A DNA stretch of 64,000 bases, taken from positions 1-64,000 of the forward strand of contig JACIWW010000007.1 in the NCBI GenBank assembly GCA_014360905.1. Direction: 5' to 3'. Under the pieces are notes generated by a model. That model was not told the origin of the DNA and did no database searches. It was given only the letters and a program-made list of their open reading frames with translations. This document shows positions 31,586 to 32,619 of the stretch, in pieces. The stretch comes from Chloroflexota bacterium (GTDB lineage Bacteria > Chloroflexota > Anaerolineae > UBA2200). The position numbers and the translations under genes are program-made. Position 1 is the first letter of the stretch; each line of letters starts with the position of its first letter.

Positions 31586-31657
31586 GCCGAACGGCTTGCG
31601 CTTCACCTGCGCCGCGCAGCGCAGCGGAGCGGCGTCAGGTGCAAGCGCGTGTTGGGC
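31586..31657 (-). repeat. attC site C (end of cassette 1)
   Basis: 72 bp. Minus-strand order: GCCCAAC (perfect RYYYAAC, 31657-31651), arm GCGCTTGCACCTGACGCCGC, central spacer, arm GCGGCGCAGGTGAAGCGC, then GTTCGGC (31592-31586; one mismatch to GTTRRRY). The arms pair except for one extra G and one extra A in the first arm. The outer flank TTGTCTGCCGCCCAAC (31666-31651) is the exact 16-nt complement of the start of cassette 1 at 32619-32604. Confidence 0.88.
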
Positions 31658-31682
31658 GGCAGACAAGGTCATCTTTGTATAA

Positions 31683-32120
31683 TTATGGAGCAGGCGTGCC
31701 CAAACTCCTCTGTATTTCATTAAACTGTTCTTGGAGCATAGGCCCAAGGACTATGCCGGCGAAACTACAAACCGCCAAAATCGAGAATAGTCCTCCTAGC
31801 ACAATTCCTGCGATTGCCATTCCTTGTCCCTTCTTCTCTTGTCTCTTTTTGATTCTGGAGAGGGCTTTCACTCCAGTCACAACTGCGACTATCCCGAAGG
31901 AGACCATACTTACATAAGTAGCCATTAGTGAATTCAACAGAGAACCGAGTATGGTTGGGACAATGAGAGCTGCCAGACACCCGAATATCAAGCTTGTTTT
32001 GGCTAATCCATATGGATTTCCAAAATCATTCTCCTGAGAAGAAGGTAATTCTGCTCCGCATGATTTGCATTTCCAAGCTACGTCCAAGTTTTCTGTTTGG
32101 CAATTAGGACACGGTTTCAT
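31683..32120 (-). CDS. Cassette gene: zinc-ribbon DUF4190-like membrane protein
   Basis: 145 residues from ATG 32120, nine bases after GGAGG; the in-frame ATG upstream would overlap the preceding gene. Starts MKPCPNCQTENLDVAWKCKSC, a single zinc ribbon, followed by two long hydrophobic segments around a basic linker (LSRIKKRQEKKGQGM-AIAGIVLGG), the layout of DUF4190 proteins. Function unknown. Second gene of cassette 1, separated from the first by 5 bp, so the two form a mini-operon under the integron promoter. Confidence 0.75.
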   Translation of the reverse strand: MKPCPNCQTENLDVAWKCKSCGAELPSSQENDFGNPYGLAKTSLIFGCLAALIVPTILGSLLNSLMATYVSMVSFGIVAVVTGVKALSRIKKRQEKKGQGMAIAGIVLGGLFSILAVCSFAGIVLGPMLQEQFNEIQRSLGTPAP

Positions 32121-32125
32121 CTTTT

Positions 32126-32581
32126 CTAACCTCCACTTTCTTTTGTCTTCCATAGACCAAACAAGATGCCGATTAATCCAATGACGCTTATCCAGAGGCC
32201 GAAACGAGGTTCTGTGTAGGTAATGCGCCACTGGTTCAGCCACTTAATCTCGATAAAGAACAGAACAAATGGTAGTAGACCGGCGACTGTCAAGAGGAGT
32301 TGCACTACAAGAATGGACAAAGGTGAATGTCTGTTGATGAACACCAAAGATAATATCCCGCATACTAAAGCCATTGCTATGGGTATATAGTAAGCCCAAT
32401 GTAGATGGGCATATTGTTTCGACAAACCCCCTGATGCGATAGCATATCCAGTACTTCTAATCCCAAAGCCGCCGTAGTAGTAGGTCGTTTCCCACGGCAA
32501 CATAAAGCCAATTGCGGTTACTATACTTGAAATAACTACGAATATATTGCCCGAATTCAATCGTTGGACTTGGCCGCTCAT
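32126..32581 (-). CDS. Cassette gene: four-helix membrane protein
   Basis: 151 residues from ATG 32581, eight bases after AGGAG; a longer reading would run back through attI into the divergent intI region and is rejected. Four hydrophobic segments (about 12-32, 62-84, 92-114, 126-146). No family recognised. It is the first gene after attI and its ribosome site lies 20 bp inside the cassette boundary, the position with highest expected expression. Confidence 0.7.
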   Translation of the reverse strand: MSGQVQRLNSGNIFVVISSIVTAIGFMLPWETTYYYGGFGIRSTGYAIASGGLSKQYAHLHWAYYIPIAMALVCGILSLVFINRHSPLSILVVQLLLTVAGLLPFVLFFIEIKWLNQWRITYTEPRFGLWISVIGLIGILFGLWKTKESGG

Positions 32582-32603
32582 AGATTCAACTCCTGATCTT
32601 GGG

Positions 32604-32619
32604 TTGTCTGCCGCCCAAC
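32604..32619 (-). other. attI/cassette-1 junction
   Basis: Minus-strand GTTGGGCGGCAGACAA with a perfect GTTRRRY core (GTTGGGC). The sequence to the left of the G (higher coordinates, towards intI) would be attI proper; all bases after the first G belong to cassette 1. The A/T-rich flank ATAATCAATA and CGGATTCCG repeats lie on the attI side. Confidence 0.7.

Follow-up and report, generated by a model that had tools for sequence, protein, structure and literature searches.

The integron platform and its array

The window, by which we mean the whole 64-kb stretch of DNA analysed, carries a complete integron whose cassettes lie on the minus strand, opposite in orientation to the integrase gene. 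This gene, intI (32758..33807, plus strand), encodes an integron-type tyrosine recombinase of 349 residues counted from the ATG at 32758. The product matches TIGR02249 (integrase_gron) over its full length with 485 bits against a cut-off of 265, as well as PF00589 and PF13495, and its nearest relatives come from Chloroflexi MAGs. Beside intI lies attI (32619..32685, minus strand), which closes with CAATAG^: its 3' end reads ...TCCGTATAATCAATAG^ at 32619, the G at this position is the last attI base, and TT follows, giving a G^TT crossover. Three attC-like sites, first detected as a direct-repeat family, follow on the minus strand; we name them attC C, attC B and attC A, the last of them degenerate. 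They were scored with R1, an attC covariance model built from 26 hand-picked sites (four of 30 listed sites were left out). An Rfam search matched three tRNAs only.

Cassette 1 is placed between attI and the first attC (31592..32618, minus strand) and measures 1,027 bp from its first T to its last G, bounds that follow from the match between its start and R'' together with attC C. Two open reading frames fill it. ORF a (150 aa, 32126..32581, minus strand) is without a match in the family searches, and ORF b (147 aa, 31683..32126, minus strand) carries a DUF4190 domain (PF13828, 44.3 bits), a zinc ribbon (PF13240) scoring below its cut-off. The cassette ends in attC C (31592..31666, minus strand), which comprises an extended R'', L'', L' and the G of R' as delimited by R1 and by DNA folding; R1 gives 51.6 bits for 31586-31657, a site among the 26 used for training.

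Cassette 2 (25446..31591, minus strand) is a 6,146-bp type III restriction-modification unit. Its start, from the G at 31592 onward, is an exact 13-nt complement of 25505-25517, and we regard it as a single unit because start and R'' match over these 13 nt across 6.1 kb. Mod and Res are encoded in one locus: mod (29617..31536, minus strand) specifies a type III DNA methyltransferase of 639 aa (PADLOC MTase_III, 958 bits; PF01555), and res (25533..29006, minus strand) a restriction subunit of 1157 aa (PF04851, 63.9 bits) with a low PADLOC score (REase_III, 68.5 bits) and an NCBIfam Res match below its cut-off. Between them is a gene for a REP-associated tyrosine transposase (28993..29604, minus strand; NF047646, 98 bits against a cut-off of 80), near which three palindromic repeats occur at 28962, 29562 and 29929. 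The cassette ends in attC B (25446..25517, minus strand; R1 46.6 bits for 25440-25511, again a training site).

Cassette 3 (24234..25445, minus strand, 1,212 bp) holds a 359-aa ORF (24277-25356) with no family match and ends in attC A (24234..24302, minus strand), which is 79% identical to attC B over 71 nt and reaches only 13.2 bits with R1 (E 9.1). Only GTTA is common to the start of this cassette and the R'' of attC A. The complementarity of cassette end and cassette start was thus found in cassette 1 (16 nt) and cassette 2 (13 nt) and fails in cassette 3.

The gene to the right of intI, at 33804-34763, is one that we take to be mevalonate-kinase-like; the 3' end of intI overlaps its start by a few bases. 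The mevalonate-kinase block is present in all six near relatives, and no integrase match was found beside it in these six (tblastn, E 1e-15; in L140 the upstream sequence spans only ~0.3 kb).

A split outer arm at the ends of cassette 1

The sequence-only reading had pointed to an exact 16-nt complement between the two ends of cassette 1, and the window sequence bears this out: GTTGGGCGGCAGACAA stands exactly at 31651-31666 on the plus strand and at 32604-32619 on the minus strand. Over the first of these stretches, the minus strand reads the R'' of attC C (GCCCAAC) and nine bases upstream of it. The second is the start arm of the cassette. Both ends are indeed paired, but not all 16 nt belong to the cassette, since cleavage falls at G^TT: the first G (32619) is an attI base, and the cassette contributes the remaining 15 (32618-32604).

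How unusual is such a match? Across the whole genome (2,833,119 bases, 49 contigs), the 16-mer has two copies, both inside the window, which removes the objection that it might be a common dispersed repeat; with up to three mismatches allowed, 0.85 occurrences are expected by chance. No other exact 16-nt inverted pair in the 64-kb window has its arms within 10 kb of each other. Three of ten block-shuffled windows nonetheless contained a pair of this kind, so that the length alone says little. What makes the match significant is where it lies: both copies sit exactly on recombination cores, the G^TT at attI and the AAC of the attC R''. At two places fixed in this way, nine matching bases beyond the core have a chance of ~4^-9 by simple arithmetic.

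In a circular cassette, the start comes right after the last G of the cassette's own attC. We reconstructed this circle in silico, as the sequence-only reading had proposed, and the resulting 90-nt attC folded into a single hairpin whose outer arm measures 16 bp. Its one stem leaves single bases unpaired in the L region, which gives the hairpin extrahelical bases on one arm. The bottom strand folds with -45.9 kcal/mol when the 16-bp arm is kept and with -31.7 kcal/mol when trimmed to the 7-nt core, while in the array, where the start is supplied by cassette 2, the value is -35.2 kcal/mol.

Very probably, the 16-nt complement represents the outer attC arm of the first cassette in a chromosomal integron, split in two by insertion. 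In the excised, single-stranded circle, the first cassette bases, TTGGGCGGCAGACAA, would pair with the bases leading into the cassette's own R'', TTGTCTGCCGCCCAAC; the 16-nt arm and the inner L''/L' stem would together form the hairpin, of which IntI would cut the bottom strand. Once IntI had joined the cassette to attI at CAATAG^TT, the arm would be divided, one half lying beside attI and the other at the opposite end of the cassette. We infer that IntI is putatively active and that an integrase of this genome made the insertion; use of the bottom strand is presumed from the literature on other integrons.

Paralogous attI sites and the state of the platform

The view that insertion split a single attC, whose R' and R'' ends are now the two 16-nt stretches, is supported by the fold, by the TIGR02249 integrase, by the attC model scores and by the divergence of attI sites at G^TT. 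Left of G^TT, the attI of contig C17 of the same genome and that of the window share 86% identity across 64 nt; a different cassette follows on C17, identity falling to 33% over bases 7-46 after G^TT. At C4:34798, another attI retains 80% identity over its last 25 nt against 20% thereafter, and two Chloroflexi relatives (L003 and L005) retain 80% and 72% over the last 25 nt of attI, other relatives less. Because paralogous attI sites diverge at G^TT, the crossover point is fixed by their comparison and not solely by the complement. That the match by itself "proves" insertion, as had been asserted, is too strong; the attI comparison shows insertion better. The empty attI that the sequence-only reading had suggested looking for in relatives did not turn up, the sites found all holding other cassettes, and neither an empty attI nor a circular cassette form was seen. 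In a genome of the same genus (G001), the flanks to the left and to the right are on separate contigs, and an exact empty site is not readable there.

The C4 contig also carries clustered attC-like sites, all on the same strand (C4:30938-34713, locus L128 10938-14713), next to the attI at C4:34798; no integrase gene was found beside this attI and cluster.

Is the platform still moving cassettes? The DNA could have arrived as a cassette at a platform that has since stopped working, the arm being a relic. An intI above the TIGR02249 cut-off is kept at only two of the six attI loci of this genome, attC A is degenerate, and the C17 array has a type IIG gene broken into two frames, all as expected of a fossil array. 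Against this, the intI at 32758 is full length, attC C and attC B are intact, and their arms still pair over 16 and 13 bp. We consider a fossil array a minority possibility, with roughly one chance in four.

Complementarity of start and R'' across cassettes

Is the arm of cassette 1 exceptional, or a general property of cassettes? The R1 model was run on 87 sources and 141 hits were used, those above the last used score that were left out being two at contig ends (L068 and L040) and one plus-strand mirror (L029). Down to the last hit used, all but one lie on the array strand. The hits yielded 97 consecutive pairs, seven of which were dropped for want of an exact GTT or AAC, leaving 90 cassettes at 26 loci with a median length of 597.5 bp. 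Pairs beyond position 7 are outside the R1 model and hence not selected for by the search. On the genome of the window, R1 gave only four hits at E <= 0.001 and missed weaker sites; array counts for this genome therefore come from sequence context. Two home-made attC detectors were dropped, since 63 candidates of the second fell on the strand opposite the array, compared with 79 on the array strand itself. One 9,663-bp "cassette" in the sample, at L111, is not a single cassette and is split by a missed attC.

The exact match between start and R'' averages 8.76 nt in true pairs (n = 90) versus 4.31 nt in mismatched pairs drawn from other loci. It extends to 7 nt or more in 74 of the 90 cassettes, to 9 or more in 50, to 12 or more in 18 and to 13 or more in three, with a maximum of 14; the 16 others fall short of 7 nt. 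Position by position, agreement is 46% at position 12 against 27% in the control, and 20% at position 13 against 24%. Of 450 cells in each case, 267 match at positions 8-12 (59%) and 122 at positions 13-17 (27%). Across the 26 loci, covariation of start and R'' therefore reaches position 12 and is at chance level from position 13 on.

The cassette 1 arm shares with known attC sites, or 59-base elements, the R''-L''-L'-R' layout, the AAC and GTT cores and the split, in the linear array, between the start and the end of the cassette; PMC2727003 likewise describes self-pairing past R, over 9-11 consecutive nt in most cassettes. The differences are its length of 16 nt and, among the 90 cassettes, an end of the covarying part at 12. 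Extension beyond the R core is thus already known, and the sharp end after 12 is the finding of this analysis. As a general property of cassettes, the extension beyond the 7-bp core is no special evidence for the cassette 1 locus, and the 16-nt arm is a normal integron feature, unusually long here.

Could the additional length have been selected, pairs beyond position 12 making the arm of cassette 1 more stable on purpose? At 16 nt it exceeds the 14 nt that is the largest value among the 90 other cassettes, though this is a single case picked for its length. Positions 13-17 match at chance level elsewhere, and four lucky matches in one of the ~19 cassettes reaching 12 have a probability of ~0.07 by arithmetic. 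We consider selection for the long arm unlikely. Since positions 13-16 are at chance in other cassettes, the last four pairs of cassette 1 may be accidental. That the pair is an inverted repeat of chance or unrelated origin, such as a transposon terminal repeat, is highly improbable despite the pairs seen in shuffled windows, given that both copies begin exactly at the G^TT and AAC of cores adjoining intI, that cassette 2 and most of the 90 other cassettes show the same relation of their ends, and that the family search found no transposase match for either ORF of cassette 1.

A palindromic cassette without an ORF

Cassette 3 begins with a palindromic hairpin (25416..25446, minus strand) of the form G^TTAGC-GCGGACGC-(TGC or GCA)-GCGTCCGC, which occurs exactly at seven sites in the genome. 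All seven directly follow an integration point, five at attI ends and two, including this one, at attC ends. The palindrome comes first at five of the six attI loci, and both orientations of the loop occur; the sites other than that of cassette 3 are L149 (C1), L150 and L151 (C4), L153 (C17), and L154 and L155 (C21). An attC-like stem of ~130 nt and then the next G^TT come after it at C4:34798 and C21:4702, so the unit there is an ORF-less cassette. At the remaining sites, the unit looks shortened. With up to two mismatches, the palindrome was found in four of 396 genomes of the class, that of the window included; no exact copy was found in the other 395, and the three matches outside are all inexact. 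ORF-less gene cassettes as described in PMC6557892 similarly lack an ORF between start and attC, and differ in that one perfect palindromic start here recurs at five attI ends and two attC ends within a single genome.

Restriction-modification systems as cassettes

Four of the six attI loci seen in this genome carry restriction-modification genes, counting the type III system of the window. A type IIG gene follows the attI on contig C1, the split type IIG gene follows the first attC on C17, and a type II methyltransferase with an endonuclease follows the first attC on C21; the match of start and R'' is weaker at the C1 (5 nt) and C21 (7 nt) cassettes. In the same-genus genome, the attI-proximal cassette holds type I M, S and R genes, and its start agrees with an R'' 7.0 kb away at 11 positions out of 14, position 4 being among the mismatches. 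The complete or near-complete restriction-modification systems lying in integron cassettes are the type III system of the window (25446-31591), type IIG at L170 (4718-7927), split type IIG at L129 (3336-6990), type II at L171 (2121-4497) and type I at L111 (10561-17516, same-genus genome).

Restriction-modification genes are reported in cassettes (PMC8618304) and in Xanthomonas integrons (PMC12444791), and anti-phage restriction as cassette content is common to these reports and the present loci. What differs is that whole systems, type III (6.1 kb) in the window and type I (~7.0 kb) in the same-genus genome, here form single cassettes; none of the titles and abstract openings searched describes a complete type I or type III system carried as one cassette, subscription papers being mostly outside this scope. 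In the experiments of PMC5371416, excision dropped consistently only for cassettes of at least 1,500 bp with a poorly folding site. Chloroflexota are listed among the integron-carrying phyla in PMC8618304 and PMC2426708. We take the host to be a member of this phylum because the nearest IntI relatives are from Chloroflexi MAGs; from the sedentary chromosomal integrons of Chloroflexota, the present integron differs in its short arrays, in the several attI loci per genome and in cassettes of up to 6-7 kb.

Implications

Can the arm, the palindrome and the restriction-modification cassettes be read together? We offer the following tentatively, as an account that is rather more likely wrong than right. 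The functional outer arm of attC may be 12 bp and not the 7-nt R box, kept by selection as the complement of start and end, and the sharp edge after 12 could mark the reach of the R-bound IntI monomers. In this species, the ORF-less cassette, nearly self-paired and made up solely of this arm and an attC stem, may have copied itself to five of the six attI sites; it takes the first position, with restriction-modification cassettes behind it in several cases, and could work there as a switch, or as an insulator, separating the integron promoter from the cargo.

The rule that links start and R'' offers a test of cassette integrity from sequence alone: the start must complement the cassette's own R'', up to 12 nt, a relation that pairs ends across kilobases. 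For structural work on IntI and attC, the edge at 12 supplies a definite value to check. By the same test, a whole type III system, and a type I system in the same genus, move as single cassettes of 6-7 kb, about ten times the median of the sample.
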